19,070 bases of DNA from Candidatus Nomurabacteria bacterium (lineage in GTDB: Bacteria; Patescibacteriota; Minisyncoccia; Phycocordibacterales; UBA9973), in assembly GCA_943356455.1 (NCBI GenBank), contig CALRFB010000002.1, positions 1 to 19,070 of the forward strand. Reading direction: 5' to 3'. The notes beneath the pieces were generated by a model. The model ran no database searches. It was not told where the DNA came from and saw only the letters and a list, made by a program, of their open reading frames with translations. This document shows positions 1 through 13,758 of the stretch, one piece after another (the stretch's first letter is position 1; each line of letters begins with the position of its first letter). The translations under genes and the position numbers were made by a program.

Positions 1-67
1 ATTATATCAAAAAATCCGAATTTGAACAATTTTACCCCGCAATTCTGTCGCCAAAAAATCAGGAAGC

Positions 68-134: not shown

Positions 135-142
135 TCCGCATT

Positions 143-190
143 TCTGCACTCCGCCTCCTTTGCCCCCAAAACATTGTGGCGGAGTGCAGA
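143..190. repeat. Perfect 13-bp inverted repeat
   Basis: TCTGCACTCCGCC at 143-155 is the exact reverse complement of 178-190. The 22-base spacer contains a short TTT/AAA pairing around CCCCC. It is the second module of the palindromic array and is separated from the cloverleaf module by only four bases. Confidence 0.75.
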
Positions 191-194
191 GCGT

Positions 195-260: not shown

Positions 261-277
261 CACTATGATATTTTATT

Positions 278-305
278 TTGAAAATAGGTTCTAACTTGGT
301 ATAGT
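278..305 (+). promoter_or_regulatory. Promoter of the kinase gene
   Basis: The -35 is TTGAAA (278-283), the spacer is 16 bases, and the extended -10 is TGG plus TATAGT (300-305). The start codon lies eight bases after the -10, predicting a leader of about two bases. No Shine-Dalgarno sequence sits at a workable distance; AAGG lies only three bases from the ATG. Confidence 0.6.
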
Positions 306-313
306 AAAGGCAC

Positions 314-1075
314 ATGAATTTTCGATCAGAAGCACCAAATACCGAAATAGAATCTCCTGAAAAAAAAGTAGAGATTTTCCATAAATATCTAGAGTCGGCG
401 AGCGATGAACAGTTCTTGCTTTGTCTAGAAAAAAATCGAGAGCGTGCAGAAGCCATCGGATATGGTAAAAATGCCGTTGTCTATGCAGTTGAAGATGAAA
501 TTATTGGACATCTCTGCGTAAAGGAAATAAATGAGTTCCCTGAGATAAAATACAACGACCCAGATGTGGAATTTGAATTTCAAGATGATTTAAATAAGAG
601 TGGTGTTAAGACTCCATACACGATAGCACAACTTAAAGATGAAAAAGGAAAGGCCTACATAATCATGGAGAGAATACATGGCAACTCTATTGGTGACATT
701 ATTAATAAACAGATGTCATTGCCAGCAGGTTTTAATTTGAATACATTTTCAATACAACTAACAGAACAAATACAAAAAATGCACGAACTTGGCATTTTGC
801 ATCGGGATTTGCATAAAGGAAATATTATGATTGATGAAAGTGGAAAACCAGTTGTTATTGATTTTGGTCTAGCTACGCACAATTCTGCGTCATCAGATGA
901 TGCGTACCTAGGCGAGGCTCAAATGTTGAATAAAAGTAACGGGAGATACATGCCAACCAAAGGGCTTTTTATGGACGATGACAAACAAGTGAAATTACTC
1001 AAAGCCGAACTACGATCATATATTGTTGAGGGTATAAATAAGGGGGTATTTACAATTTCTGATAATCTGATATAA
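314..1075 (+). CDS. Protein-kinase-fold protein (Ser/Thr or lipopolysaccharide-kinase-like)
   Basis: A 253-residue protein with a compact kinase fold. Visible parts are a glycine-rich loop (GYGKNAVVY, 49-57), the conserved Lys in CVKEI (K70), a hinge-like YIIMERIHG (116-123), the catalytic loop HRDLHKGNIM (163-172, D165 and N170) and the metal-binding DFG (183-185). The HRDLHKGN form is shared by bacterial Ser/Thr, RIO-like and Kdo/LPS kinases, so the substrate is uncertain. There is no membrane segment, so it should be cytoplasmic. The C-terminal lobe after DFG is short (about 68 residues). A promoter lies immediately upstream and the next small gene follows 18 bases downstream with its own promoter. 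All catalytic residues are present, so activity is plausible. I am confident of the fold, not of the target. Confidence 0.75.
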   Translation: MNFRSEAPNTEIESPEKKVEIFHKYLESASDEQFLLCLEKNRERAEAIGYGKNAVVYAVEDEIIGHLCVKEINEFPEIKYNDPDVEFEFQDDLNKSGVKTPYTIAQLKDEKGKAYIIMERIHGNSIGDIINKQMSLPAGFNLNTFSIQLTEQIQKMHELGILHRDLHKGNIMIDESGKPVVIDFGLATHNSASSDDAYLGEAQMLNKSNGRYMPTKGLFMDDDKQVKLLKAELRSYIVEGINKGVFTISDNLI

Positions 1076-1076
1076 T
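1049..1076 (+). promoter_or_regulatory. Promoter for the 69-residue gene
   Basis: TTTACA (1049-1054), a 16-base spacer and a consensus TATAAT (1071-1076). It overlaps the last codons and stop of the kinase gene and predicts a leader of about 11 bases before the ATG at 1094. Confidence 0.5.
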
Positions 1077-1093
1077 ATAAAAAATTAGCAAAA

Positions 1094-1303
1094 ATGAACT
1101 TATCTAAAACTCTAGTAGAGAAGATCTACGAAACCGTAAAAAGCGATATCGAAGCGGGTAAAAACCAAGGAGAAATACCGCTATATAAACTCGCTTTTTA
1201 TCTCGATAAAAAACCAACCATTGAAATCTTACAATTTCCATTAAGTTTGCTTATTTCAGACCGCACAGAAACTTTATATATCGGTGGTCAATTAGAGTCG
1301 TAA
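1094..1303 (+). CDS. Small protein of unknown function (69 aa)
   Basis: I do not recognise this protein. It is soluble-looking, with an N-terminal helix rich in Lys/Glu (about 3-22) followed by a segment with alternating hydrophobics (about 28-55) and a short C-terminal strand-like stretch (LYIGG). It follows the kinase gene closely. It has its own near-consensus promoter and an intrinsic terminator whose loop contains its stop codon, so it looks like a self-contained transcription unit. That bracketing is the main evidence that the gene is real. No Shine-Dalgarno sequence precedes the ATG. Confidence 0.55.
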   Translation: MNLSKTLVEKIYETVKSDIEAGKNQGEIPLYKLAFYLDKKPTIEILQFPLSLLISDRTETLYIGGQLES

Positions 1304-1326
1304 CAACCACGTTCGACTCTTTTTTT
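1294..1326 (+). terminator. Intrinsic terminator with the stop codon in its loop
   Basis: AGAGTCG (1294-1300) pairs with CGACTCT (1314-1320) and is followed by a T run (1320-1326). The TAA of the preceding gene (1301-1303) is the first three bases of the loop. Confidence 0.75.
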
Positions 1327-1327
1327 A

Positions 1328-1336
1328 TGCCACAAT
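1328..1336 (+). promoter_or_regulatory. Extended -10 for the pseudouridine synthase gene
   Basis: TGC followed by CACAAT (1331-1336), then exactly six bases to the ATG at 1343. This placement puts +1 on the start codon. No good -35 is visible because the terminator T run occupies the region. Confidence 0.45.
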
Positions 1337-1342
1337 ACTGAT

Positions 1343-2164
1343 ATGAATCCCCAGATTATGTATGAAGACAATGACATACTCGTTATCAATAAACCGTCTG
1401 GTTTACTGGTACATGGCGACGGTCACAATTGCGAAGAAACACTTGCAGATTTTTTGATTACAACAGCCAAAGTCTCACGCGAAATCGGTGAACCACTCAT
1501 TATTCCACTCGGCAAAGGCGTCGTTGCTGATTGTGCATTGCCATCTCATGAATATACAACCAACGAACACAGCACACCCATTTTAAAAATTCATCGTCCC
1601 GGTATTGTTCACCGACTCGACAAGGATACTTCTGGTGTCATGATTATTGCTAAAGATATGGCAACATACCTTGCACTCAAAAAGCGATTTCAAGATCGAG
1701 AAATGAAAAAAGAATACCTTGCTGTCGTACGTGGCAGTTTCAAAGAAAATATCGGTTCAATTTCCGTGCCAATTGGTCGTTCAAAAAATGACTTTCGTAA
1801 ATGGCTTTCTGGTAGGGGAACGCGAGGGGAATTACGTGATGCCGTTACTGACTATCGCGTGCTTGGTAAAACGCGTGGTTCAGCTGCTGATCCTCAGGAC
1901 CAAACTGAATGGAGTCTGATCCTCATAAAACCTCGTACTGGCCGTACACACCAAATACGCGTCCATATGAAATTTACAAACCATCCGATCGGCGGTGACA
2001 AGCTTTATGGCGATGACAAGACGATTGCCGCTTACCCGCGCCTTATGTTGCACGCTATTCGTTTGAGCTACCCAGGGAAGGACGGAAAAATAAGGGTTTT
2101 TGAAGCTGATGCCCCTGCCGACTTTAAAGATGTCGCCCGTCTTGCACAAGTTAGCATTACATGA
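1343..2164 (+). CDS. RluA-family 23S/tRNA pseudouridine synthase
   Basis: A 273-residue enzyme that isomerises uridine to pseudouridine in rRNA or tRNA. The family signature HRLDKDTSG is at 90-98 with the catalytic Asp at D93. The second conserved motif, [10 protein letters not shown], lies near 204-213, and the opening [18 protein letters not shown] is typical of RluA proteins. There is no S4 RNA-binding domain at the N terminus, as in RluA rather than RluD, so an exact symbol is not safe. About 40 extra residues lie between the first strand region and the catalytic motif (roughly 42-84), longer than the compact members. Its last codons carry the rplS promoter, so the two ribosome-related genes are adjacent but can be expressed separately. 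Confidence 0.9.
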
Positions 2165-2170
2165 TAAAGT
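2142..2170 (+). promoter_or_regulatory. rplS promoter
   Basis: TTGCAC (2142-2147), a 17-base spacer and an extended -10 TGA plus TAAAGT (2165-2170). It lies within the end of the upstream gene. The rplS ATG is ten bases downstream, predicting a leader of about four bases. Confidence 0.6.
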
Positions 2171-2180
2171 AACGTCCGTT

Positions 2181-2582
2181 ATGGCACTCAACGTAATGAC
2201 CCCCGTAAATACAGACGAACGCAAAAAACTCGAATTTTCTTCGGGCGATACTGTTCGCGTTTGGTCAAAAATCGAAGATAAAGGCAAAGTTCGTCTTCAG
2301 GCGTTCGAAGGCCTCGTTCTTGCACGAAAACACGGCAAAGAAGCTGGTGCAACTTTCACTATTCGTAAAGTAGCAAGCGGTGTTGGTGTTGAACGTGTCT
2401 TTCCTCTCTACTCTCCAAACATCGATAAAATCGAAATCGTTAAACGTGCTCGCGTACGTCGTTCAAAACTTTATTACGTTCGAGAAAAAGCTGCTCGCGA
2501 AATTGCTCGCAAAATGAAAATGTTTACACTCAAAGGTAAACACGAAGAAGAGGCTGCTGAAGTTGCCGAAGTTAGCGAATAG
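2181..2582 (+). CDS. rplS: 50S ribosomal protein L19
   Basis: A 133-residue large-subunit ribosomal protein that lies at the 30S/50S interface. Family hallmarks include the beta-barrel opening [11 protein letters not shown], the FEGLVLARK segment, the [14 protein letters not shown] block, and the basic [12 protein letters not shown] tail. Bacterial L19 is usually about 115 residues; the extra length here is an acidic C-terminal tail ([15 protein letters not shown]). The start at 2181 is chosen because homology begins there and a good promoter is positioned just upstream; an in-frame ATG at 2100 would add residues unlike L19. The tRNA-Leu gene follows 30 bases after the stop. Confidence 0.96.
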
Positions 2583-2592
2583 TTTGTATACT
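2563..2592 (+). promoter_or_regulatory. Probable tRNA-Leu promoter
   Basis: TTGCCG (2563-2568), an 18-base spacer and TATACT (2587-2592), with the mature tRNA starting 21 bases downstream. It overlaps the end of rplS, so read-through from rplS is also possible. Confidence 0.45.
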
Positions 2593-2612
2593 ACAAAAGC
2601 CTACGGCAATAT

Positions 2613-2699
2613 GCGCGGGTGGCGAAACTGGTAGACGCACTACCTTGAGGTGGTAGCTCCCGCAAGGGAATGGAAGTTCAAGTCTTCTCCCGCGCACCA
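2613..2699 (+). tRNA. tRNA-Leu (anticodon GAG)
   Basis: The acceptor stem GCGCGGG/CCCGCGC pairs over 7 bp (2613-2619 with 2689-2695). A73 and a genomically encoded CCA follow (2697-2699). The anticodon arm CTACC-TTGAGGT-GGTAG has GAG at 2647-2649. The long variable arm (CTCCC/GGGA with a GCAA loop) is typical of class II tRNA-Leu. It decodes CUC and CUU codons. Confidence 0.95.
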
Positions 2700-2717
2700 A
2701 GAATGGCAATTCTTAAT

Positions 2718-2747
2718 AAAAACACGGTTCACGCCGTGTTTTTATTT
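2718..2747 (+). terminator. Intrinsic terminator after tRNA-Leu
   Basis: A 10-bp stem (2718-2727 with 2734-2743, core CACGG/CCGTG, 6-base loop) ends in a T-rich run. A second, weaker 6-bp hairpin (2699-2714) precedes it. Confidence 0.75.
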
Positions 2748-2780
2748 TGTTTTCCAGTATCAAAATATGCATATTGCATT

Positions 2781-2786
2781 TATAAT
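2781..2786 (+). promoter_or_regulatory. Consensus -10 for the anchored-protein operon
   Basis: A perfect TATAAT ends six bases before the ATG at 2793, which predicts a leaderless transcript. No clear -35 is visible at 16-18 bases upstream. Confidence 0.55.
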
Positions 2787-2792
2787 AGGTAT

Positions 2793-3236
2793 ATGTTGAA
2801 AAATGGTGGTATTGCATGTATCCTGCTCGTCGGTTTGGCTATCGGTTTATTCTTCTTTTTAAAAAATCGTCCCGCAATGTACGTAGTACAAAACGACACA
2901 CCAGTACCGGCAGTTTCAACTGAGATTGTTTGGAATGCATACAGTATCGGTACAACAGTTTTTATTTATCCTTCCGATTGGATTTTTACCGCAACGAGTG
3001 ACACCAGTGGTTTTTCCATTGTTGATCCAACAAGTTCAAATAGTGCAGACCGTATTGATGTGGGAGGATCGTGTGCAACCACACCAACACCTGATCAGGT
3101 CGCACAGCCTGCTAAAAAACAAAGTGCATGTATCAACAATATCTTTATGTATACCGATAGTATCAATAAGAAAGTACTCAATGTTTTCAATGATATGAAA
3201 ACATTTGGTGAACAAAATACAAACCATGCTAACTAA
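2793..3236 (+). CDS. Small membrane-anchored protein of unknown function (147 aa)
   Basis: I cannot name a family with confidence. One hydrophobic segment (about 6-24) follows a short N terminus, so the rest should face outside. The external part contains YPSDW (59-63) and GFSIVDP (73-79), a pattern reminiscent of PsbP-like lipoproteins of other bacteria. Two cysteines, C94 and C113, could form a disulfide. The start at 2793 is preferred over longer frames because the consensus -10 lies six bases upstream and the earlier frame runs back into tRNA-Leu. The gene overlaps the start of the next gene by 11 bases, indicating an operon and probable translational coupling. The C-terminal 20 residues are hydrophilic and low in complexity. 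Confidence 0.65.
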   Translation: MLKNGGIACILLVGLAIGLFFFLKNRPAMYVVQNDTPVPAVSTEIVWNAYSIGTTVFIYPSDWIFTATSDTSGFSIVDPTSSNSADRIDVGGSCATTPTPDQVAQPAKKQSACINNIFMYTDSINKKVLNVFNDMKTFGEQNTNHAN

Positions 3237-4911
3237 TGACATCATCGCGTACATTGAAAATGAAGTGCAACGAGGTGTATCACATCCGGGTATTAACGAT
3301 GCGCTTGTTGCGGCTGGGTGGAAATCGATAGAAGTTGCAGATGCATTTCGTGTAGTAACAGAGCGAGCAATAGCTGGTACAACTGGTTTGCCGTACATGC
3401 CACCAGCTGAAAGTTCACACCCACAAAAAGAAAGTATTAACCAAGCTGCTGTTACTGAAACATTGGCGATGAACAAGGCCGCCGTCGGCGCACAGTCAGA
3501 TGAAAGCGCGATACATACAGTGCCGACGGCGGAAACTATTGCCGCCGACAAATTACCCGTCGGAGGTTTTATCCCAAACTCCAGTGTTGCTGTTCCAGAT
3601 CTAAAAATTACTGAAACATCTGCAACGCAAATCAAAGAAGAATCTAGTCACGTTGAACATCATCGCCTGATACCAGTACTCATCGGTCTAGGTGCCCTGG
3701 TTCTCGGCGTTGCAGGCTATTTTTTCTTGGCACCATTTCTCGATAATCCAGCAAAAAAAGTTGCTTCACTCGTTGCTATAGCTGAAACATCAAAATCAAT
3801 TCAGTATTCAGGTGAATATCAAATCACTACGCCTGCCGGTTTACTTTTGCCCGACAAAGTTTTGTTGGCACATTTTGGAGGCACAACCGCTCGTGATAGC
3901 AATGCCACACTACAAGGCACTTTCCTTGGTGTCGATGATTGGTTTGATTTTCGTTCCAAGAAGAATGAAGTAAAGTTTTCAGATAAAATTTCTGTCGCTG
4001 GCGGTACACCTATGGAATTTTCCACTACGAGTAGGCTTATCAGTGGTGCATTATATGCAAAACTTTCTGAAAGCGATGCTGTATTTGAAAATGCTATTGC
4101 CAACCAGGGTGCAAACTGGCTACGTTTTGATGACGGGGGAGATGTGCCGATGTACGCATATGGTTTTTTGGGAAATGCAGACTTGTACGGCAAAGGTCTA
4201 GCTCGCACTCTTGCAACATATATCAGTGCCGCAACTATCGGTACAGCAGATAAACAGGCCACCGGAGACACGGTCATAGCTGTTCGGTACCCAGATGCTG
4301 TGGTAACTTACTTCACTTCGATTTTTGCAACAGGCGACAAGGTCGGTATTTCCGGAAGTATAGGACCAAAACATCCAGCCACCTCTTTTGTCGATTTACC
4401 TGCAGGAGAGATAACCGTTGGTGTCGATGGTATGGTTAAAAAAGCAGTCATTGGTTTTGCATATAAAACGAAAGACTATGCTTTACCAGTTCGCGTACAA
4501 ATTACTATTTCGTACGATCGTTTTGACACACCTCCGGCTATAAATATTCCATCGCTCGTCATCCCATTTACTGACCTGACAAAAAAAGATGCTGCGAGCA
4601 ATCTTCCGTCTGGGCTCGAAGGTTTTTTCAATGACATCCGTACGATAGCAAGTGTTTACAAAGGAACAAATGCTGATTCGTATAAAGGTGTTTGTATAAA
4701 AAAAGGTGAAGACAGTGTCGATAGTACAGAACTAACTATTCCATATATTTCTAATAAAGTTATGGCCTCTGGCTATGCTCTACCTGTTTGTAGTGACACG
4801 GAAACTGCGTGGAGTTACTACACAAACGACGCATCTGGATACTACTGCACAGACAGCCGTGGTTGGGACGGAAAGGTTGCCCGCAAACCATTGGGTGACA
4901 AATGTAATTAA
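3226..4911 (+). CDS. Anchored protein: helical head, single membrane segment, external LolA/LppX-like domain, Cys tail
   Basis: A 561-residue protein. Residues 1-33 form a short helical module (NDIIAYIENEVQRGVSH ... GW) like the UBA-type heads seen on many Patescibacteria membrane proteins. A low-complexity linker follows (about 45-147), then one membrane helix (about 148-170) and an external domain of mixed strands. The external domain resembles the LolA/LppX lipoprotein fold in pattern (inference). The last 70 residues carry several cysteines, ending in YYCTDSRGWDGK and a final Cys two residues from the end. The protein at 9949-11487 (-) is a paralog with the same head, layout and tail. Start choice: the ATG at 3226 aligns exactly with the paralog's start, while an in-frame TTG at 3205 would add seven residues. 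The function is unknown; the tail suggests surface exposure and disulfide bonding. Confidence 0.75.
   Translation: MLTNDIIAYIENEVQRGVSHPGINDALVAAGWKSIEVADAFRVVTERAIAGTTGLPYMPPAESSHPQKESINQAAVTETLAMNKAAVGAQSDESAIHTVPTAETIAADKLPVGGFIPNSSVAVPDLKITETSATQIKEESSHVEHHRLIPVLIGLGALVLGVAGYFFLAPFLDNPAKKVASLVAIAETSKSIQYSGEYQITTPAGLLLPDKVLLAHFGGTTARDSNATLQGTFLGVDDWFDFRSKKNEVKFSDKISVAGGTPMEFSTTSRLISGALYAKLSESDAVFENAIANQGANWLRFDDGGDVPMYAYGFLGNADLYGKGLARTLATYISAATIGTADKQATGDTVIAVRYPDAVVTYFTSIFATGDKVGISGSIGPKHPATSFVDLPAGEITVGVDGMVKKAVIGFAYKTKDYALPVRVQITISYDRFDTPPAINIPSLVIPFTDLTKKDAASNLPSGLEGFFNDIRTIASVYKGTNADSYKGVCIKKGEDSVDSTELTIPYISNKVMASGYALPVCSDTETAWSYYTNDASGYYCTDSRGWDGKVARKPLGDKCN
3478..3542. repeat. GC-rich inverted repeat inside the linker region
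   Basis: CCGCCGTCGGC (3479-3489) is the exact reverse complement of 3532-3542. A related GCCGCCGAC and a CGTCGGAGG follow within 30 bases, so the same core appears about four times in alternating orientation. It is far richer in GC than its surroundings and encodes part of the dispensable linker between the head and the membrane helix. Confidence 0.55.
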
Positions 4912-4912
4912 T

Positions 4913-5251
4913 ATGGATCACGATTTACTAAAAAAGAAATGCGAAGTGTGTGAAGGTGGTGTACCGCCACTTAATGCATACGAAACTGAAAATTATATGG
5001 TGGAAATACCTGGCTGGGAACTTTCGTCTGATGGTAAGAAAATTTCTCGAAGTTTTATTTTCCGAGATTTTGTCAAAGCCCTCGATTTTGTCGATGCTGT
5101 TGCCGATATTGCCGAGATGGAAGGCCACCACCCTGATATTCATATTTTCTATAACAAAGTCACACTTGAGCTATATACCCATTCAATCGGTGGTTTGTCC
5201 GAGAATGATTTTATCATTGCCGCCAAAGTGAACCAAATACCTAACCTGTAG
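4913..5251 (+). CDS. Pterin-4a-carbinolamine dehydratase (PCD/DCoH family)
   Basis: A 112-residue enzyme of the family that dehydrates 4a-hydroxytetrahydropterin. The signature EGHHPDIHIFYNKVTLEL and the downstream THSIGGLSENDFIIA match the PCD active-site block; the paired His (HHP) and the later His in THSIGG are the usual catalytic set. The N terminus has an extra CxxC-like pair (KCEVCEGG), often seen in bacterial members. No phenylalanine hydroxylase is nearby, so the physiological pterin is unclear. The start ATG lies one base after the stop of the previous gene, so it is probably expressed in that operon by coupling. Length is normal for the family. Confidence 0.9.
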   Translation: MDHDLLKKKCEVCEGGVPPLNAYETENYMVEIPGWELSSDGKKISRSFIFRDFVKALDFVDAVADIAEMEGHHPDIHIFYNKVTLELYTHSIGGLSENDFIIAAKVNQIPNL

Positions 5252-5294
5252 ATTGTGGGCATTTTGCCAAAAAACTAGCAAAATATCGGTTTTT

Positions 5295-5321
5295 TTGCTA
5301 TAAATCACAAGCGGGTAATAC
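5295..5321 (+). promoter_or_regulatory. Possible tRNA-His promoter
   Basis: TTGCTA (5295-5300) and TAATAC (5316-5321) with a short 15-base spacer. The tRNA begins about 19 bases later. The element is modest; the 89-base gap before the tRNA holds nothing else except an AT-rich 8-bp hairpin. Confidence 0.35.
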
Positions 5322-5340
5322 TGCACAGTGTCGTCCACAT

Positions 5341-5413
5341 GGAGCCTATGGTGTAACGGTTAACACTGAGGTTTGTGGAACCTTCGATTCGGGTTCAATT
5401 CCCGATAGGCTCC
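5341..5413 (+). tRNA. tRNA-His (anticodon GTG)
   Basis: Read as a histidine tRNA, G5341 is the extra G-1 opposite C73 (5413), and GAGCCTA (5342-5348) pairs with TAGGCTC (5406-5412). The anticodon arm GAGGT-TTGTGGA-ACCTT has GTG at 5375-5377; the T arm is TCGGG-TTCAATT-CCCGA. The 3' CCA is not encoded (the next bases are CAA), unlike tRNA-Leu in this window, so CCA must be added. Confidence 0.93.
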
Positions 5414-5434
5414 CAAAAAAATAAATACTTTTAA

Positions 5435-7507
5435 TTAAAAAACCTCAATAAAAGAACAAATATCTTTTCGCGAAGTATTTGTTCGAGAAATCAGAGTGTC
5501 GCACTCTACAAGCATGGCATGTAATTGGCTGTTTTGTGATACGGGTAACGTAGATAGTATGGAACGAGCCGAAGCTACATTGTTTGAGCAGGTTAAAGAA
5601 AATGTATCATAAATACTTTCCCAAAAAGTAGTAAGCAACAAAGTTGGATTATTACATTGCTCAACAAGCTGCAACGACGAAACCTCTTTGGGTAAAGCTG
5701 ACAATACCGCATGGCCGATAGGACTGATATGCCCACGCGCCAGGTCGTCGATAAGGTCTTCGGCGTCGTCATAACCTTGTCGAATATCTAAATAAAAATT
5801 TAAAAAAATAAATAACTTTTGCTTATAAAGAGTTGCTGTATCCATATCTATCTCTGCATATTGCACCAGCCAGTGCAAGGCTACGCACGGAGCAATGGCG
5901 GCGCCTATTGATTTGGTATATTTGGAAAGTTTAAAATTATAATTGTCTAAAGGGAAATTCATGTGCGGGTCGATACGCATTTTACGCTCGGTTGAGTAAG
6001 CGTCGTTGGCATGACGAAGCACTGTACTTGCCCAATGATACATATCAAGTGAAAGGATTTTTTGATATATGCTTTGCATTATTTCTATATTGATTTGCGC
6101 AAAGTTTAAAATATCCGATTTTGTTTCTCGCGATTGTGTGCAAGCGGTATTGCTGTTGCCGTTTTTAAGGGGAGTATTTTCTCCATCACCAATCGAATCG
6201 AGTAAAGAATAACCAATCCACCCAGCTAAACTGGCTATGACTAATTCTTCTAAATGATGGGTAGTTTGAAGTTGATTCCACGTGTCGTTGTCTTGGGTGC
6301 TAGTGAAACCTTCTCGTAATGTGAGTGGCAGTAGAATACATTGCGCGATCCAATCTCTTTCAAACATTGCCGCACTCCATAGTTGTGCGTATCCGGTAAA
6401 ATTATTTGAATACGAAGAATTCTCTGATGTAGAGCGAATATACTGAACATACATCTCTGATATTCTTTCTGGCAAAGATTTTTTACTTTCTCTTTTTTCT
6501 TCCAACATCAGGTATGCATTCACAAGTGCCTCGATACAAAAAGCGGTTGAAAGTACAGGGGATCCATTGAACCATTCTGTTTGGCTGTCGCCATATTCGA
6601 AATATGCATATTCAGTTTTCCATGAACCATCAGGGCCTTGGTTGTCTATGATAGATGATAACCATTTAAAATGTTTTGGTGTGTTATTTCCGCAACCTTC
6701 TTTTTTTTGAATTCGAAATTCTTTTGATTTATTTAAATATGCCAGTGCACTACAACCAAGAGACAACAACATGGGGGAGGCAACCTTTCTCTCTAACTCT
6801 AAATGAATTTGCTCTTCAAAAATGTGGTGTTCAGTGCCGGTGTAACCTCGGCTTATAAAGTATAAGAGGACAAGGGGCTCTCTATAGTATCGAGACTCCA
6901 GATTCGCTCCTTGTAAAAATGGATCCATATTTTTCAACGAAAATCCGAGTAATTTTGTCATATATGCGATGTTGGCATTTACTCCGATATCGCAGTCCTC
7001 CCAACGATTATCTTTTTTCCAATCTGTTAGCCATGTTATATATGGACCGCCAGGAGTGCATTCAGTGGCGAGTAGGGTATGTGTCAGTCTAGCCAAGAAA
7101 TCGCCAGTAATTAGTTCTGGCTTCCAAGTCAAAATAGCAGCAATAGCTAGTGCCGTATCATCTAAATCACAAGGTAGGGTTGAGCGCTTGGGTTCGCCTA
7201 TGTTCCAATAATTCCACGCACAGTGGTCCGAATCTTTTTGTCTTAAAATACTCCCAATAGCATTGTGGGAAATAGTTTCGAGACGCATAGTGTCGAATGT
7301 GTCTAGTAGGTCACAGTTTTTAAGCGGAGTAAGTGCCCCAAGTAAAAGTGAAGTTGTAAAAGCAGTGTTCGATGGTTTGATATTGCCGTCGCTAGAATGA
7401 GAAAAACTCTGGAAACTACCGTCTTTATTCTGTACAGATTCAATATAGTTGAGTGCGTTACGTAGAATAGGTAGTATTTTGAGGCGATAAGATTTCTTGT
7501 TTTGCAT
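5435..7507 (-). CDS. Terpenoid-cyclase-like protein: alpha/alpha toroid with DxDD plus C-terminal class I isoprenoid-synthase-like domain
   Basis: A 690-residue protein. The N-terminal part looks like the squalene/prenyltransferase toroid: QNKDGSF at 26-32 and a second QGPDGSW at 290-296 resemble QW repeats. DLDDTAL (114-120) matches the DxDD acid motif of class II terpene cyclases. GVNANIAYM (175-183) and SRYYREPLVLLYFISRGY (205-222) also recall this family. The C-terminal part (about 465-690) has RQGYDDAEDLIDDLARGHIS (576-595), whose DDAED resembles the metal-binding DDxxD of class I isoprenoid enzymes. This suggests a two-site enzyme acting on a prenyl diphosphate. I saw only one Asp-rich class I motif and no NSE/DTE motif. 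The start at 7507 overlaps the kinase end by 50 bases; later Mets would remove the first repeat. The co-transcribed sensor kinase and regulator suggest regulated expression. The fold is fairly sure, the chemistry inferred. Confidence 0.65.
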   Translation of the reverse strand: MQNKKSYRLKILPILRNALNYIESVQNKDGSFQSFSHSSDGNIKPSNTAFTTSLLLGALTPLKNCDLLDTFDTMRLETISHNAIGSILRQKDSDHCAWNYWNIGEPKRSTLPCDLDDTALAIAAILTWKPELITGDFLARLTHTLLATECTPGGPYITWLTDWKKDNRWEDCDIGVNANIAYMTKLLGFSLKNMDPFLQGANLESRYYREPLVLLYFISRGYTGTEHHIFEEQIHLELERKVASPMLLSLGCSALAYLNKSKEFRIQKKEGCGNNTPKHFKWLSSIIDNQGPDGSWKTEYAYFEYGDSQTEWFNGSPVLSTAFCIEALVNAYLMLEEKRESKKSLPERISEMYVQYIRSTSENSSYSNNFTGYAQLWSAAMFERDWIAQCILLPLTLREGFTSTQDNDTWNQLQTTHHLEELVIASLAGWIGYSLLDSIGDGENTPLKNGNSNTACTQSRETKSDILNFAQINIEIMQSIYQKILSLDMYHWASTVLRHANDAYSTERKMRIDPHMNFPLDNYNFKLSKYTKSIGAAIAPCVALHWLVQYAEIDMDTATLYKQKLFIFLNFYLDIRQGYDDAEDLIDDLARGHISPIGHAVLSALPKEVSSLQLVEQCNNPTLLLTTFWESIYDTFSLTCSNNVASARSILSTLPVSQNSQLHAMLVECDTLISRTNTSRKDICSFIEVF
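5454..5484 (-). terminator. Terminator-like hairpin inside the end of the cyclase-like gene
   Basis: GAACAAATA (5454-5462) and TATTTGTTC (5476-5484) form a perfect 9-bp stem with a 13-base loop that can itself pair partly (CTT/AAG). On the - strand it is followed by a T-rich stretch that contains the stop codon region. The stem is AT-rich, so termination strength is doubtful. Confidence 0.35.
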
Positions 7508-8954
7508 GCTGATTTTTAGGAATAGATTTATTTTTAAGAATGGCAACTGTGAATGTTGATCCTCTGCCGACATTACTTTCACAGGAAAGAGTTCCAGAAA
7601 AATAAGTCGTAACAATATCGCGAGATGTCGAAAGACCGATACCAAGACCAGATGTTTTGGTTGTGAAGAACGGCAGAAAGATATTTGGTAGTATGCTTGG
7701 CTCGATACCAGAACCATTGTCCGTAACTGTGCAAATACAAAGTACTTCTCCGTTCTCTGTTGTTTTTTCAAAAAGTGCGACAGCGATTTGTGTTGCTCCT
7801 GCATCTATTGCGTTTGTGATCAGGTTAAGTACTACCTGATTAAATTTTAGGGGATTGCCTAGTAAGGTAATGTCGAAGTCAGCAGTAAAAATAATTTGAG
7901 CATTAACTTTCAGGGCTTTATGTTTGAGTATTGCGATGGCATCTTCAATCTCGGTATTCAAAGAAAATAACCCACGGAGGTCTTCAGTTTTTATTTGTTT
8001 TTTAACCGTGCTAATAAATGCTTCCATTCTCTTGGTTGCGTCACGTGCAGTCTTAAGGGTGGCAAGGGTTTCTAGGTTTTCTGTAGGAAATTGGGAATCT
8101 GTAGATAGTTTTTCAACGGAAAGGGTAACAGCCGTGAGTGGTCCGACCAAGTCGTGAAAAATCCCACCAGATAATTTACCGAATTCGGCAAAGCGATAGA
8201 GCTCACGCATGCGTTCTCTTTCTGATTCTCGCAGAGCCTTGGTGCGTTCCCGTACTGTTATTTCTAGGTTGTCGCGCTCCTGTTTCAAAGCTGCTTCAGA
8301 ATCGCGTGCCCGCTTGAGCGATTGCTCCATTTCTTTGTTTGATAGCCTCGACAAAAGAGCGGTGATGCCGATCATAATAGCGTATCCGATAACGTCTTTT
8401 GTATCGAGAACACTAAGTTTCCAAGAGGGAAGTATGTGAGCAAAATGTTCGTGTAAGCCAATCGTTATCACAGAAACAGAAGACAGGAGTGCCATAATAA
8501 AACCGAAACGGCTACTGATAACTATCCCAGCAATCGTAACAACGAGACCGTATCCGAGTAAACCCATGGGTAAACTTGCACCCCATCTATAACTCGTACA
8601 AACTATGCAGAAAAAAAGTAAGAATATATAGGCATACCCGGCCACCAAATATTTTCCACGACGGGTTAGATATAAGAGAAAAAAATAAATAGCCAATATG
8701 CAGCTGAAAATAGACAGGGGCACACCTTTGTAATTGTTATTTGTGGCAATAACGATAGCTATAACTACTTCAAAAAAACCGGTTATAAGTATGGTGATTG
8801 CCAGAATATATGTAAGTATTCTTTCGCTACGATTGCTGTCCTCTCCGTTTGACCTCGGTGCTAGAAATGTGGAATAGAAATAATGAGCACTTCTATTGTA
8901 CCAGCCTTGGCAGTTGGTAAACGCTGTTTTTATGCTCATTAGAATAGTGTTCAT
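7458..8954 (-). CDS. Membrane sensor histidine kinase
   Basis: A 498-residue kinase. About six membrane helices occupy residues 47-203, followed by a charged coiled coil (about 205-250). The dimerisation/phosphoacceptor helix carries [11 protein letters not shown] with the phosphorylated His at H267. The ATP-binding domain has the N box [10 protein letters not shown] (376-385), G1 DNGSGI (412-417), F box FLPFFTTK (426-433) and G2 GLGIGLS (436-442), so all catalytic boxes are intact. The membrane part has no recognisable sensor domain, so the signal (lipid, membrane state or small molecule) is unknown. It lies downstream of the response regulator on the same strand and overlaps the cyclase-like gene by 50 bases. 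No -10 or Shine-Dalgarno sequence precedes its ATG, consistent with expression from the regulator's promoter. Confidence 0.93.
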
Positions 8955-8985
8955 TATTTCTTTGGAGTTGTGCTCGACGTTGATA

Positions 8986-9093
8986 TCAGCTCCACCAGGG
9001 TTCGAGTTCTCCGGCTTGAAGAGAAAGTTTCTTTATCTCTTCGGTGTTTCTAACTTGTTCGGTATTTAGTATTTTTTCGATAATTGATACCAT
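8986..9093 (-). CDS. Possible 35-residue peptide between regulator and kinase
   Basis: An ATG-started frame (MVSIIEKILN ... LEPWWS) lies in the otherwise empty 239-base gap between the response regulator and the kinase and ends 31 bases before the kinase ATG. It has an amphipathic, charged N-terminal helix and an aromatic C-terminal end (EPWWS). No ribosome-binding site or well-placed -10 is visible. It may be a leader peptide, a signalling peptide for the adjacent kinase, or chance; length alone gives weak support. Confidence 0.3.
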   Translation of the reverse strand: MVSIIEKILNTEQVRNTEEIKKLSLQAGELEPWWS

Positions 9094-9193
9094 ACATTTT
9101 GCTGTTAGTGATATAAAGCAAATCCATTCGACCACATGGCTTGCTTCAAAATAAGTATGACAAAATGATATGAAGCCCTAATAAAATAAATAT

Positions 9194-9862
9194 TTATTTT
9201 TCCTCAAGCATATAACCTCGACCAGGTACTGTATGGATTAATTCTCGCTTACCGTGCTGAATTTTCTTACGTAAATTGAAAATATGCGCTTCGATAGTAT
9301 TAGAAAATGGGTCACTCTCCATACTCCATACGTGCTCCATGATGGTTCCTCGCGAAACAACATGGCCTTCGTTGCGTGCCAAATATTCAAGCAATGAATA
9401 TTCTTTGCGAGTTAGGTAGACTTCTTTGTCACCCCGCATGACTCGTTGGCGTGCTGCATCGATCGTAATAGTACCGATTTTCATCACGGGTTCATTGATG
9501 CTTTGAGGCCGACGGAGTAGGGCGTTTATTCGAGCGATCAGTTCTTCAAAAGAAAATGGTTTAGTGACATAGTCATCGACGCCTTTATTCAAAAGGAGTA
9601 CTTTGTCTGAAATTTCACTTCGTACGGTGATCATGAGCAATGGCATCTTTTTTCCAGCCTCACGAATCTCATGGCAAATACGTAGCCCGTCTTTCCCTGG
9701 AAGCATATAGTCCAGAATAACTAAATCATAGTCATTGGTTCGAGCTAAAAAGGAACCCTGTGTACCATCACTGCAACTATCTACTGCAAAACAAGCTGAT
9801 TCTAAATAGGAACTTAACATTAATAATATCTGTGGGTCATCTTCTATAAGTAGTACACGCAT
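9194..9862 (-). CDS. OmpR/PhoB-family response regulator
   Basis: A 222-residue two-component regulator. The receiver domain (1-115) has the acidic pocket at EDD (7-9), the phosphoacceptor D51 in VILDYMLPGKDG, the switch Thr at T79 and K101 in YVTKPF. The winged-helix DNA-binding domain (about 128-220) has RKEYSLLEYLARNEGHVVSR and the recognition segment NTIEAHIFNLRKKI followed by HTVPGRGYML, typical of PhoB/OmpR. It is probably phosphorylated by the kinase encoded downstream. A TATAAT six bases before its ATG gives a leaderless start, and an imperfectly repeated GTTTCC sits further upstream where an autoregulatory site could be. Its stop codon lies in a 16-bp AT palindrome (AAATAAATATTTATTT). 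Confidence 0.95.
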   Translation of the reverse strand: MRVLLIEDDPQILLMLSSYLESACFAVDSCSDGTQGSFLARTNDYDLVILDYMLPGKDGLRICHEIREAGKKMPLLMITVRSEISDKVLLLNKGVDDYVTKPFSFEELIARINALLRRPQSINEPVMKIGTITIDAARQRVMRGDKEVYLTRKEYSLLEYLARNEGHVVSRGTIMEHVWSMESDPFSNTIEAHIFNLRKKIQHGKRELIHTVPGRGYMLEEK

Positions 9863-9868
9863 AGTCGC

Positions 9869-9874
9869 ATTATA
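9869..9874 (-). promoter_or_regulatory. -10 of the response-regulator operon
   Basis: A perfect TATAAT on the - strand ends six bases before the ATG at 9862. The -35 region is poor (GTTTCC at about 17 bases), which may fit dependence on an activator. Confidence 0.55.
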
Positions 9875-9893
9875 TGCCGTTACCGTAAATAGG

Positions 9894-9917
9894 AAACCGC
9901 CGCTGGGGAAACGGTTT
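9894..9917. promoter_or_regulatory. Inverted repeat upstream of the regulator promoter
   Basis: AAACCG (9894-9899) and CGGTTT (9912-9917) flank a 12-base spacer; read on the - strand, GTTTCC occurs twice, 16 bases apart. It lies 20-45 bases upstream of the regulator's -10, so it could be its operator. Alternatively it is a weak terminator of the gene upstream, though no T run follows. Confidence 0.3.
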
Positions 9918-9948
9918 TAGAATTATTTTAAAAAGATTTTAACTCCAA

Positions 9949-11487
9949 CTACTTACAGAGCATTCCTTTTGGAGCTTTTAGAAGATCAACAGTGGTACCA
10001 GCAGAGTCTGTGCATGCGTAGCCACCTGTTGTATCTGAAAGTTTTGAAAACAATATGTATGCCGATGCAGTATCTTTGCAAGTCACAACTGCTTGGCTTT
10101 CTAGCACAGAAGGTGATGAGCAGAAATTCTTGTAACTGAGTGAAGCATTTGCAAAATAGTCTTCTGCATCTTTTTGTAAGCTTGAAATACTATTTCGGAC
10201 ACTTTCATCAAATGCGGCTTCCCCAGCATTTTTCATGCTGTTTTCTATATATGCATCAAAAGGCAAGCTTTCTGCTGGGGCGTCTACTTTTGCCCCACTG
10301 TTCCAATCTGTAAATTCTGTTGAGGTGGAAATTGATCCAGCTGTTGTTGCTATGGTCGCCATAATTTTATATGGCAATTTGTCTTGTTGGCCAATCCAAG
10401 CTTCACCAGAAAGAGAATTGATAGATGGAATATCTGACGTTAAAACTGAAAATGCAATATGGTACATGGTTACACCGTTGATGCGAGTAGGAGGGAATCG
10501 TTTTGTAATGGTAAGGCGATTTGTGGCGTTCTCGCCGAGCATGCCAAATGTGACTGGGTCGATAGGCACAGAAAGCCACTGACTCTGGTATGTATCAAAA
10601 AAAGGCACAGATGGAGCTTTGGTGGTTTTGATAAACAACATACTGTTGACGAGTCGAACACTAGCTTCGGCGTCTATGCTGCCAGCTGTGATAGTTGCTG
10701 TGCTATTGAGAGAAGTATTGTGGTCGGCGTCTTTGCTAATGGTTCCGGAAGCGGCGATGTCGAGAGAAGATGAAAAACCAGGAAGCATACCGAGGAAGTT
10801 GCTGTTGTCAGGAGCGGTTGCAAGTTCAACGTGAGCATTTGTTGTAAATGATCCACCATTTACTTGTCCGTATGCAGAAGCCATTTCGGTTCCTAGTGCG
10901 GCCGATGTCGTGAAGTAGCCGGCAAAATAGCCATATACTGCGCCACCACCGAGGATAATGAGTAAAATCACAAAGACAGCGATTATTTTACCGTACGATT
11001 TTGTTGGTTTATATGAAATAGTTTCAACACCTCGCACTGTGTTTATGTGCATCGTCGGTGTAGGAGAATGAATTGTCACAGATTCTACAGATGCTGCTTC
11101 GGCTGTTGCAGCAGCAGTTGATGCGCCTGCTCCAAATGTTGGAGAAACGAATTCGGCTGGTTTAAATGTTGGTTTCGAAGGACTGAAAGGTTGTGTTGTG
11201 GCTTTTTGTTTGTATGCATCAAGTGCGGAAGCGAGGTTTGGTTTTTGAATTGGTGTTGTTTGTGTGACTGGCGTTGCTTGCACATTTGGTTGTGTAAACG
11301 TTGACATAGGTTGCACGATTGGCTGCGGTGCAGGCGGTACGACTGGTGTGGCAAAAACGATACTTTCGCCCTCGTCGACATCTGCCACCTGCCAGCCACT
11401 TTTAATGAGCATGTCACGGATGACTGCTTTACTTACGCCACGATTTGATTCGGAGCGAATGTAGTCGATGAGATCTTTGTTGACCAT
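9949..11487 (-). CDS. Anchored protein paralogous to the one at 3226-4911
   Basis: A 512-residue protein with the same layout as its + strand paralog: helical head (NKDLIDYIRSESNRGVSK ... SGW, 3-32), a Pro/Gln/Thr-rich linker (about 45-160), one membrane helix (about 167-191), an external strand-rich domain, and a C-terminal cysteine tail with YACTDSAG and a penultimate Cys. The external part includes SLSGEAWIGQQDKLPYKI, a pattern like the WI-D/Q-x-x-x-x-P segment of LolA/LppX-type lipoproteins (inference). The head should be cytoplasmic and the rest outside. A consensus TATAAT stands six bases upstream of the ATG, and the gene sits between the HIT gene and the regulator operon without a clear terminator. 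The function is unknown. Confidence 0.75.
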   Translation of the reverse strand: MVNKDLIDYIRSESNRGVSKAVIRDMLIKSGWQVADVDEGESIVFATPVVPPAPQPIVQPMSTFTQPNVQATPVTQTTPIQKPNLASALDAYKQKATTQPFSPSKPTFKPAEFVSPTFGAGASTAAATAEAASVESVTIHSPTPTMHINTVRGVETISYKPTKSYGKIIAVFVILLIILGGGAVYGYFAGYFTTSAALGTEMASAYGQVNGGSFTTNAHVELATAPDNSNFLGMLPGFSSSLDIAASGTISKDADHNTSLNSTATITAGSIDAEASVRLVNSMLFIKTTKAPSVPFFDTYQSQWLSVPIDPVTFGMLGENATNRLTITKRFPPTRINGVTMYHIAFSVLTSDIPSINSLSGEAWIGQQDKLPYKIMATIATTAGSISTSTEFTDWNSGAKVDAPAESLPFDAYIENSMKNAGEAAFDESVRNSISSLQKDAEDYFANASLSYKNFCSSPSVLESQAVVTCKDTASAYILFSKLSDTTGGYACTDSAGTTVDLLKAPKGMLCK

Positions 11488-11493
11488 GACAAA

Positions 11494-11499
11494 ATTATA
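11494..11499 (-). promoter_or_regulatory. -10 of the second anchored-protein gene
   Basis: TATAAT on the - strand, followed by TTTGTC and then the ATG at 11487: another start with exactly six bases between -10 and initiation codon. Confidence 0.55.
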
Positions 11500-11519
11500 T
11501 CACTAAAGTGCATGACTTT

Positions 11520-11555
11520 TTTCAACAAAGAAGTTGAAAACTACAACGTAGTTTT
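11520..11555 (-). terminator. Tandem hairpins at the end of the HIT gene
   Basis: AAAACTAC-GTT-GTAGTTTT (8 bp on the - strand, 11555-11537) contains the TAG stop in its 3' arm. A second hairpin, TTCAAC/GTTGAA, follows. The stems are AT-rich, so strength is uncertain, but the T-rich stretch after the first stem fits an intrinsic terminator. Confidence 0.45.
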
Positions 11556-11951
11556 AATTTTGTCGGCAATGTTCTGGAGTTCATTTTCGCTATATGAAAC
11601 TTCTGGACGATGGTCACCAAAAATTTTCTCACCATGGTGGCGGGGAATAAGGTGAATGTGAAAATGCGGGACTTCATCTCCGGCGATAACCACTTGTACA
11701 TAATCACAACCCAAACCGCTCTTCATGGAAATAATTAATTTTTTAACTATCGTAAACATGTCGGCAAGGAGCGCATCGGGCACATCTTGTACCCACATAT
11801 ACGGCTCTTTACTCACGAGAAGCAAGTGGCCTTTGCTTACAGGGTGAAGATCCATACACGCCAAAGAAACAGCGTCTTCGTAGACGATTGTCGCAGGGAT
11901 TTCACGACGAATTATTTTAGAAAATATCGTGTCGGTATTTGGGTCTGTCAT
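11541..11951 (-). CDS. HIT-family nucleotide hydrolase (Hint-like)
   Basis: A 136-residue histidine-triad protein that hydrolyses nucleoside phosphoramidates or dinucleotide substrates. The triad VPHFHIHLIPR (94-104) has H96, H98 and H100; the upstream PVSKGHLLLVSK and the IFSKIIRREIPA opening are standard for bacterial HIT proteins. The start at 11951 is chosen because the protein begins just before the family's IF-x-K-I-I block and a TATACT sits six bases upstream; longer frames would run through recJ. The stop codon TAG lies in the stem of a hairpin that may terminate transcription. It is divergent from recJ with only 27 bases between the two start codons. Confidence 0.92.
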   Translation of the reverse strand: MTDPNTDTIFSKIIRREIPATIVYEDAVSLACMDLHPVSKGHLLLVSKEPYMWVQDVPDALLADMFTIVKKLIISMKSGLGCDYVQVVIAGDEVPHFHIHLIPRHHGEKIFGDHRPEVSYSENELQNIADKIKTTL

Positions 11952-11957
11952 GTGCTT

Positions 11958-11972
11958 AGTATATGGTAAAAT
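11958..11972. promoter_or_regulatory. Back-to-back divergent -10 elements of the HIT gene and recJ
   Basis: On the - strand TATACT (11958-11963) is six bases from the HIT ATG (11951). On the + strand the extended -10 TGG plus TAAAAT (11967-11972) is six bases from the recJ GTG (11979). The two hexamers are only three bases apart, so the -35 region of each promoter lies inside the other gene's coding sequence. Confidence 0.55.
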
Positions 11973-11978
11973 GCCAAA

Positions 11979-12608
11979 GTGAAAAAGTGGGAACTGAGCC
12001 CGGACGTACCCGGGCATGTATTGACAAAGTATGGTGATATTGTTCGCCGTATGCTTTTTGATCGCGGTATAGCATCTGAAGACACTGCTGAAGTATTTCT
12101 TCATCCTAGCTACGAATCTTTGCTCGATCCATATTTATTTTGTGATATGGAAAAAGCAGTTGTGCGTATTTTTGAAGCTATGGAAGCCAAGCACACAATA
12201 GTTGTCTACAGCGATTACGACTGTGACGGTATTCCCGCTGCTACTATCATGTCAGATTTTTTTAAAAAAATCGGTTATGATAATGTTCGTTTTTATATTC
12301 CACATCGTCACGATGAAGGCTATGGACTCCACATGGACGCAGTTAAAGACTTTGTTACAACAGGAGCCAAACTCTTACTCACATTTGACCTCGGGGTCAC
12401 TGCCGTTGCTGAAACTGCGTATGCTATGGCAAATGGTCTCGATGTTATTATTACCGACCACCATTTACCGCACGGAGAATTACCTCGTGCATTTGCAATC
12501 ATCAACCCCCATGTCGACGAACAGTATCCTGAAAAAGTGTTATCGGGAGCAGGTGTTGCATTTAAACTCGTGCAAGGGTTTATAAAAAAAATACGGCGAG
12601 TTTTATAA
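11979..12608 (+). CDS. recJ: RecJ single-strand DNA exonuclease, N-terminal part (frame broken)
   Basis: The first 204 residues read as the DHH phosphoesterase half of RecJ, the 5'-3' single-strand exonuclease of recombination and mismatch repair. Metal-binding motifs are SDYDCDG (78-84), RHDEGYGL (110-117), FDLGV with D137, TDHHLP (159-164) and GAGVAFKL (190-197). The frame then runs over A8 at 12584-12591 and stops at 12606 after eleven aberrant codons. Dropping one A gives FIKKYGEFYKIHEGWEKW and continues without break into the C-terminal part, for about 584 residues in all, normal for RecJ. The start is a GTG with an extended -10 six bases upstream; no ATG is available that keeps the N-terminal block. 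It may be a sequencing error, a true lesion, or a gene rescued by slippage. Confidence 0.85.
   Translation: MKKWELSPDVPGHVLTKYGDIVRRMLFDRGIASEDTAEVFLHPSYESLLDPYLFCDMEKAVVRIFEAMEAKHTIVVYSDYDCDGIPAATIMSDFFKKIGYDNVRFYIPHRHDEGYGLHMDAVKDFVTTGAKLLLTFDLGVTAVAETAYAMANGLDVIITDHHLPHGELPRAFAIINPHVDEQYPEKVLSGAGVAFKLVQGFIKKIRRVL
12584..12591 (+). other. A8 tract at the recJ frame change
   Basis: Eight consecutive A residues lie between a stop in the downstream frame (TAA 12583-12585) and the stop of the upstream frame (12606-12608), the only 23-base zone where the switch can occur. Loss of one A, in DNA, in the transcript or as a read error, exactly restores the RecJ frame. Confidence 0.75.
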
Positions 12609-13734
12609 GATACATGAAGGGTGGGAGAAATGGTTACTCGACGTAGCAGCACTCGGCACGCTTTCCGATATGGTGCCGATCCGCGGCGAAAACAGAATAA
12701 TTTCATATTTTGGTATGAAGGTCTTGCGTCGAAACAATCGTCCAGGACTGCGTGCACTTTTTTCTAAAATGAAAATGGACACGGAACATCTGACTGAAGA
12801 TGACCTGACATTTATGGTTGCACCACGTATCAATGCGGCGTCACGCATGGATAGTCCGATTCGAGCTTTTGAATTGTTGGCGTCGGACACACATGCCCAA
12901 GCTGTGCCTCTTGCCGAGCATTTGTCTAAAATAAATGACGACCGCAAGTTGCTCGTGGCTCGCATTATGAAAGAAGCCAAGTCTCATGTAGCAAAACGAA
13001 GTGAAGAAAGTTCGGTGATTGTTGTTGGTAGTACTGGGTGGTCGGCAGGGATCTTGGGTTTGGTTGCTGGTAAACTTGCTGACGAACTTGGCAAGCCGGT
13101 TTTTGTCTGGGGAATGGAAGAGGACGACGAACATATCAAAGGTTCGTGTCGGTCCGACGGTACGGTCAATGTCGTCGATATGATGACGGCAAATACAGAC
13201 TATTTTGTGCAGTTTGGCGGACACATGATGGCCGGTGGTTTTGTGGCAACACGAGAAAAAATTCACTTTTTAGAAAATGCACTGACGGAAACGTATGTTG
13301 CTATGCAAAAAAATGCGGTCGAGGTGGCGGAGGTTGCGCGCGAGTCTGGAGAGACGAGCGCGCCCCAGCACGTCGCTCTGGCGACGATCACACTCGATAA
13401 AGTTACACCACGATTTATCGAAGACATCGATCGTTTTGCTCCGTTTGGTCTCGACAATCCAAAACCAATTTTTCTTTTTCAAAATGTCACGCTCGATGCA
13501 GCGAAACAATTTGGTAAAACAAAAGAGCATTTGGAAATTATGGTGAGCGATAGTACTGGTTCAACAAAGGCTATCGCTTTCTTTAAATCAATCGACGATT
13601 TTATACGTGATGTTTCTGTGGAACGTGTGCGGAGTGGTCACCAGATTACACTCGTTGGCACGCTCGAAGTGTCGTATTTTCGTGGTAGGGAAGCACGTAT
13701 TCGCATTGTTGACATTTTACTTGAAAAGGCGTAG
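12592..13734 (+). CDS. recJ: RecJ, C-terminal part (DHHA1 and OB regions)
   Basis: These 380 residues continue RecJ after the A8 tract. They open with EKWLLDVAALGTLSDMVPI, the conserved end of the DHH core, then carry the DHHA1 nucleic-acid-binding part with STGWSAGILGLVAGKLADEL and the glycine motif QFGGHMMAGGFVA. They end with an OB-like region (ITLVGTLEVSYFRGREARI). If translated independently the first ATG would be 12670, which would lose about 26 conserved residues, so I treat this as the second half of one gene. A GC-rich hairpin lies in the linker between DHHA1 and OB. The unknown gene at 13775 follows 40 bases later with its own -10. Confidence 0.85.
   Translation, partial: YGEFYKIHEGWEKWLLDVAALGTLSDMVPIRGENRIISYFGMKVLRRNNRPGLRALFSKMKMDTEHLTEDDLTFMVAPRINAASRMDSPIRAFELLASDTHAQAVPLAEHLSKINDDRKLLVARIMKEAKSHVAKRSEESSVIVVGSTGWSAGILGLVAGKLADELGKPVFVWGMEEDDEHIKGSCRSDGTVNVVDMMTANTDYFVQFGGHMMAGGFVATREKIHFLENALTETYVAMQKNAVEVAEVARESGETSAPQHVALATITLDKVTPRFIEDIDRFAPFGLDNPKPIFLFQNVTLDAAKQFGKTKEHLEIMVSDSTGSTKAIAFFKSIDDFIRDVSVERVRSGHQITLVGTLEVSYFRGREARIRIVDILLEKA
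13336..13363. repeat. GC-rich hairpin within recJ
   Basis: GCGCGCGAGTCT (13336-13347) pairs with AGACGAGCGCGC (13352-13363): six GC pairs, a tandem G-A mismatch, four more pairs and a GGAG loop. It encodes part of an Ala/Glu-rich interdomain linker (EVARESGETSAP), where an insertion would be tolerated. Confidence 0.5.
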
Positions 13735-13758
13735 ATTTTGCAAAACAAAATCTCAGAC

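Follow-up and report, generated by a model that had tools for sequence, protein, structure and literature searches.

A gene on contig CALRFB010000002.1 of Candidatus Nomurabacteria bacterium (assembly GCA_943356455.1) raises the question of whether a patescibacterial cell could build a cyclised terpenoid and, if so, for what. It lies within positions 1 to 19,070 of the contig, the whole stretch of DNA analysed here and called the window in the following, and encodes a protein of 690 residues which is very likely a terpenoid enzyme with two functional sites. The near-invariant pairing of this gene with that of a histidine kinase changes what the enzyme is probably for, and suggests that these ultra-small Patescibacteria may make and sense a terpenoid signal (Table 1).

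The sequence of the window protein alone finds no match in Pfam, NCBIfam or the PDB, and its nature becomes visible from structure and from family profiles. The predicted structure (mean predicted local distance difference test score, pLDDT, 84.6; predicted template modelling score, pTM, 0.81) consists of a single class II-type toroid followed by an alpha domain, with the gamma toroid absent. In a fold search, the toroid gave a whole-domain match to AsDMS, a bacterial HAD-TCbeta drimenol synthase, and the alpha domain to trans-isoprenyl diphosphate synthases (E-IDS), the latter match spanning residues 343-675. A profile of the enzyme family, A1, matched AsDMS at E 6.5e-17 with D116 aligned on D333. 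A reading made earlier from the sequence alone had given the open reading frame (ORF) and the positions of D114-L-D116-D117-T118 and D580-D581-A-E-D584 correctly, and had proposed a bifunctional protein that combines a toroid bearing a class II site with a class I-like C-terminal domain. Both of these are supported, while the two toroids (an alpha-beta-gamma architecture) that it expected had to be rejected, as the model shows one. The DxDD motif which that reading regarded as unusually early is at the normal position for a lone beta domain, because the enzyme has one toroid and not two. The ORF is open upstream as far as 7804, and the family alignment begins near the methionine at 7507.

The family was collected from proteins and from genomes. 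A search of a protein collection gave at least 34 proteins including that of the window, of which 32 went into A1 (the partial P0018 and P0034 were left out), and the profile then reached at least 38. A scan of genome contigs gave at least 67 loci, which were joined with loci from other genome searches into 84 and clustered. After removal of 9 near-copies from 81 enzyme ORFs, 72 remained; the 57 with at least 540 residues aligned (the window and 56 loci) form the family alignment used for all conservation counts, and 15 shorter ones were excluded. Six of these members (L024, L036, L037, L040, L065 and L070) are from records titled only “bacterium” or “uncultured bacterium”; all others belong to records titled as Patescibacteria groups or to the window's class. 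Median pairwise identity, computed for 56 of them, is 32%.

In the toroid, D114 and D116 are present in all 57 members and D117 in 55; Y208 is likewise invariant, and Y207 is kept in 54. The catalytic DxD(D/T) acid and the tyrosine partner of TCbeta class II cyclases are thus found in the alpha-alpha toroid fold that is typical of these enzymes. In MstE, which is also a single-toroid protein, D109 is presumably the catalytic aspartate. Structures of D109 mutants exist according to PDB titles. For AsDMS, PMC12365925 describes D333 as the proton donor, assigns Y426 to the phosphate and names Y427 as the partner of the catalytic aspartate. By alignment to AsDMS, the aspartates of the window protein would line a pocket. 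The QW-like motif noticed earlier is present as well (Q26 in 52 members, G30 in 51, F32 in 47).

In the alpha domain, the fold comes with the first and second aspartate-rich motifs (FARM and SARM) of E-IDS. D437 and D441 of the first motif are invariant, with aspartate in 35 of 57 members at its second position; Q577, D580, D581, D584 and D588 of the second motif and E507 are each found in every member. A global profile alignment to 11 prenyl synthases encoded in the collected loci also places FARM on FARM and SARM on SARM (prob 66). At the presumed diphosphate-sensor position, residue 532 is lysine in 31 and arginine in 26 members, so that a basic residue is always there, and S533 is invariant. 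By contrast with E-IDS, the same global alignment shows no basic counterpart in the alpha domain to the isopentenyl diphosphate (IPP)-binding GKxxRP or to the RRG that follows the FARM, and no position between residues 343 and 420 carries K or R at 75% or more in the family. PF00348 does not match the window protein and reaches only 1 of 32 members, at E 0.07 and below the cut-off. A profile of 51 of the 57 alpha domains (A4) found only unrelated weak matches in the PDB, at E 0.14 or worse. The class I motif pair of bifunctional diterpene synthases, DDxxD and NSE/DTE, is also not complete, as D437xxxD441 is followed by DDxxDxxxD, and neither class I terpene synthases nor squalene/phytoene synthases are among the best 50 fold matches listed. 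Because the IPP-binding signatures are missing, the alpha domain is probably no longer a chain-elongating prenyltransferase, and would instead hold a class I-type ionisation site.

As both sites are invariant at a median identity of 32%, strong selection must act on both. Chance motifs were rejected as an explanation, with D114, D116, D580, D581 and D584 in 57 of 57 members. Fold, AsDMS profile match and invariant catalytic residues agree with a terpenoid enzyme, and neither a missing toroid nor strong homology to a non-terpenoid family turned up. The sequence-only reading largely had the kind of enzyme right and had the number of domains wrong; it had overlooked D437xxxD441, the tyrosine pair at 207-208, the E-IDS-like nature of the alpha domain and two upstream genes, one for a histidine kinase and one for a response regulator.

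These upstream genes are the constant feature of the neighbourhood. In 56 of 57 loci the enzyme gene is preceded on the same strand by a kinase gene (one of them, L020, has another ORF called between the two). The one exception, L060, has only 92 bases of available sequence ahead of the enzyme start. In the window, the kinase and enzyme genes share 50 bases at the beginning of the latter. Across the loci, the two genes have a median spacing of -8 nt; overlap is seen in 38 of 56 pairs, a figure inflated by the use of longest-ORF starts. A response regulator gene of one cluster stands no more than two ORFs before the kinase in 40 of 56 loci; the regulator of the window is not counted among these, since the 5-kb locus taken there ends before it, and in several further loci the sequence is short or the regulator lies downstream. 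E-IDS genes are found no further than five ORFs away in 10 of 57 loci. Among the neighbour clusters of all 84 loci, which differ in length, the kinase occurs in 71, the regulator in 54, an ABC transporter in 16 and E-IDS in 12. All others occur in at most 8, and the pairing of kinase and enzyme is therefore not general synteny.

The same association is seen across genomes with the enzyme profile and a profile of the kinase sensor (A2, 53 rows). An even sample of 379 genomes across the phylum had the enzyme in 19 and the sensor in 22, with both in 15, the enzyme only in 4, the sensor only in 7 and neither in 353 (Fisher p 2e-18, relatedness ignored). Three of the enzyme-only genomes are a toroid-only match (G178) and two enzymes that begin at a contig end (G621 and G764). 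Two sensor-only genomes, both kept in the counts, are a probable false match (G440; E 5.9e-6, ORF not kinase-like) and one with an alpha-like gene overlooked by the profile search (G775). A sample of 383 genomes from the class, which overlaps with that of the phylum, gave 8 with the enzyme and 9 with the sensor (both 5, enzyme only 3, sensor only 4, neither 371; p 1e-7). Its three enzyme-only genomes (G178, G341 and G118) match at toroid positions only, and in G249, one of the sensor-only genomes, the contig ends just past the kinase.

The kinase itself is predicted to have six transmembrane (TM) helices. Its model (mean pLDDT 86.9, pTM 0.59; alignment A3 of the window and 45 relatives) has helices at 38-71, 80-98, 102-124, 129-145, 148-171 and from 185 onwards; a coiled coil and a catalytic core of the standard type come next. 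The hydropathy peaks of the family agree with six TM helices joined by short loops, an assignment made from model and hydropathy only. The 50 matches listed in a Foldseek search with the model are histidine-kinase-type structures. Pfam matches of the sensor region are scattered (MASE11 in 4 and 6TM_PilS in 3 of 46 members), and the sensor profile had a single weak match in the PDB, at E 3.5.

Taken as one system, these parts would work in three steps. The beta toroid very probably would bind a prenyl chain, the far end of which would be protonated by D116, beside Y208 and D114, leading to class II cyclisation. The cyclised and still diphosphorylated product could then pass to the alpha domain, where Mg2+ held at D437/D441 and D580/D581/D584 would remove the diphosphate by class I ionisation, leaving a hydrophobic terpenoid. 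This terpenoid may enter the membrane, where the six-TM kinase encoded just upstream would read it and signal via the OmpR-type regulator. That a two-site terpenoid synthase works with its own membrane sensor is, in our judgement, an evenly balanced proposition, and that its product is the ligand of the paired kinase is put forward more tentatively.

The arrangement matches, by analogy, the clusters of autoinducer synthase, six-TM kinase and regulator such as lqsA-lqsR-lqsS. The cqs and lqs clusters consist of synthase and kinase with a regulator in some (PMC3376566), and CqsS is a six-TM kinase whose lipophilic ligand may bind within the membrane (PMC4821796). The loci described here share with CqsA/CqsS and LqsA/LqsR/LqsS the clustered synthase gene, the six-TM kinase without ligand-binding extracellular loops and, as in lqs, the response regulator; they differ in the OmpR-type DNA-binding domain of the latter. 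No account of this enzyme-kinase system was found among the papers listed in a literature search, judged by titles and abstract openings and with most subscription journals outside its scope, so that its absence is unproven.

Variants of the locus indicate which part of the enzyme belongs to the kinase. In G034, G205, G583 and G652 the kinase is followed by an enzyme with a truncated or diverged toroid that lacks DxDDT, with the SARM intact and the FARM present. In G743 (279 residues) and G775 (301 residues) an alpha-only protein follows regulator and kinase. The alpha domain would therefore be the constant partner of the kinase, with the toroid as an optional pre-cyclisation module lost in some lineages. 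In the tree of the 57 members, labels cluster by group (16 changes against a shuffled mean of 29.5), and 21 of 54 inner branches have support below 80, with several long branches. Clustering by Patescibacteria group together with many weak forks makes an old presence with some exchange plausible. Terpenoid signalling across the Patescibacteria, with an E-IDS-derived class I-like enzyme that is usually fused to a toroid, imported precursors and the six-TM kinase as receptor, is a possible generalisation which we hold with some reserve.

Alternatively, the enzyme could be a bifunctional terpene synthase for a structural or protective lipid, hopanoid- or carotenoid-like, with kinase and regulator doing no more than adjust its expression to membrane state or stress. 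The operon-like order of regulator, kinase and enzyme would also suit a locally regulated biosynthetic gene, and polytopic kinases can sense membrane properties. However, kinases of the sensor family occur without an adjacent enzyme in eight genomes, an alpha-containing enzyme without the kinase was seen once, on an intact stretch, and no tailoring gene is common to the loci, which makes this explanation unlikely. It is rather improbable that the alpha domain is a working prenyltransferase, for elongation or for transfer to an acceptor as in MoeN5, which supplies or consumes the prenyl diphosphate cyclised by the toroid. The E-IDS fold and the two DDxxD-type motifs would fit, and A1 matches MoeN5 by profile, if very weakly (E 2.2), but the basic residues of GKxxRP and RRG have no counterpart, and the ten loci mentioned encode a separate E-IDS close to the operon, as does the window's genome elsewhere. 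That toroid and alpha domain lack catalytic activity and act as scaffold or regulatory modules, serving as a ligand-binding partner of the kinase, agrees with the gene pairing and with the deviations of the window copy at several alpha positions, but is highly improbable because a scaffold would not need the catalytic aspartates and tyrosine of both sites that are invariant in 57 divergent members.

Several observations weigh against a two-site synthase coupled to its own sensor. The R378 and R380 diphosphate residues of AsDMS are not kept, and the profile alignment has W169 (54 of 57) and D171 (52 of 57) in their place; the head group may therefore be bound differently in these enzymes, or be a different one. 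PMC12365925 describes R378 as critical in AsDMS and these arginines as only partly conserved among drimenol synthases. The window copy departs from the family at S438 (mostly D in the family), E475 (R in 49 of 57), A536 (H in 50) and E583 (H in 53). Among the toroid variants, G034, G205, G583 and G652 have the KS replaced, and G205 has a glutamate for the first FARM aspartate. G748, with an enzyme and no kinase on an intact contig stretch, is a real exception, and sensors stand without a neighbouring enzyme in G342, G392, G430, G441, G479, G594, G689 and G759. Sensor distances follow those of the enzyme no better than kinase-core distances do (partial r 0.26 versus 0.35). Finally, UppS, IspH and GHMP kinases have no match in the window's genome (87.9% complete, 50 contigs), in which the one PF00348 prenyl synthase found is an E-IDS of the kind that the earlier reading had suggested looking for. 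De novo precursor synthesis is therefore unlikely, and prenyl precursors would have to be imported, presumably from a host.

The nearest known systems are AsDMS (PDB 9mhs, 9m7d-f) and the fungal AstC. The single beta toroid, the DxD with the same catalytic aspartate, the tyrosine pair and the fusion to a second domain are shared with them (PMC12365925). In AsDMS, the second domain is an N-terminal HAD phosphatase, whereas here it is C-terminal with the alpha isoprenoid-synthase fold, which takes up the rest of the chain (residues 343-675) and leaves no HAD domain; the motif is DLDTT there and DLDDT here, and R378/R380 are replaced. Plant and fungal bifunctional class II/class I diterpene synthases are alpha-beta-gamma proteins whose class I motifs are DDxxD and NSE/DTE. 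They share with this family a class II toroid site and a metal-binding alpha domain in one chain; this family differs in lacking the gamma toroid, in its second metal motif DDxxD and in a length of mostly about 590-730 residues. Trans-isoprenyl diphosphate synthases (PF00348) share the alpha fold and the FARM and SARM positions, and differ in matching Pfam and in their IPP-binding signatures.

If the enzyme is active, some reduced Patescibacteria genomes make their own cyclised terpenoids via a beta-alpha architecture with an intact class II site, in contrast to plant beta-alpha terpene synthases, where the beta domain remains as a relic. Should the product be the kinase ligand, a terpenoid signal would exist in Patescibacteria, for which, to our knowledge, little is known of communication with other cells and with the host. 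In episymbionts without a precursor pathway, such a system could double as a read-out of the host's prenyl diphosphate supply. The hypothesis is directly testable, as the three genes for synthase, receptor and regulator are neighbours.

Table 1. Features of the enzyme locus in the window, and alpha-only genes at two other loci.
Feature	Position	Strand	Evidence
Beta-alpha terpenoid enzyme, 690 residues	5435..7507 (stop included)	-	ORF, family alignment, model, fold search, conservation
Single class II-type beta toroid, residues 2-335	6503..7504	-	
DLDDT, residues 114-118	7154..7168	-	D116 aligned with AsDMS proton donor D333, D114 with D331
Y207-Y208	6884..6889	-	Aligned with AsDMS Y426 and Y427
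Alpha domain, residues 343-690, trans-isoprenyl diphosphate synthase fold	5438..6481	-	
First Asp-rich motif D437-S-I-G-D441 (A1 consensus DDxxD)	6185..6199	-	Aligned with E-IDS FARM
K532-S533, presumed E-IDS KT / diphosphate-sensor position	5909..5914	-	
Second Asp-rich motif Q577-x-x-D580-D581-A-E-D584-x-x-x-D588	5744..5779	-	Local hhalign alignment to E-IDS SARM, prob 64.5
Sensor histidine kinase, six predicted TM helices, coiled coil, HATPase kinase core	7458..8954	-	Pfam HATPase_c, model, hydropathy
Conserved membrane sensor part, kinase residues 30-214 (profile A2)	8313..8867	-	
OmpR-type response regulator, receiver and winged-helix DNA-binding domain	9194..9862	-	Pfam Response_reg, Trans_reg_C
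Alpha-only genes directly downstream of regulator and kinase	L145:4131-4970 and L143:3710-4615	-	

Relatives that consist of the toroid only occur in records of other phyla, where they adjoin a cytochrome P450 gene (Brevundimonas, L084) or a flavin amine oxidase gene (Chloroflexi, L083). Such neighbours fit a terpenoid chemistry of the toroid, and neither relative has a kinase of this cluster within five ORFs. In the 47 stretches of viral contigs that matched a pattern, no relative is encoded. The Brevundimonas relative is at L084:9824-12129, and the P450 gene beside it was identified by Pfam. An operon-like group in G118, from the window's class (L102:4341-7586), combines E-IDS, a UbiA-like gene and a toroid-only gene with a hydrophobic N terminus, with no kinase nearby. 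L082:6760-8706 and P0038 have a DDxxD-type motif followed by a squalene-cyclase-like toroid, an arrangement that resembles a reversed domain order, and a toroid-only gene lies two ORFs on in L082. Kinases without an adjacent enzyme at L094 (G342), L096 (G392), L097 (G430), L134, L135, L138, L139 and L141 are possible solo receptors, and most of these six-TM kinases have a regulator-sized gene upstream. Elsewhere in the window, two adjacent ORFs on the plus strand in different frames (11979-12608 and 12670-13734) are presumably parts of one RecJ-like DHH exonuclease.
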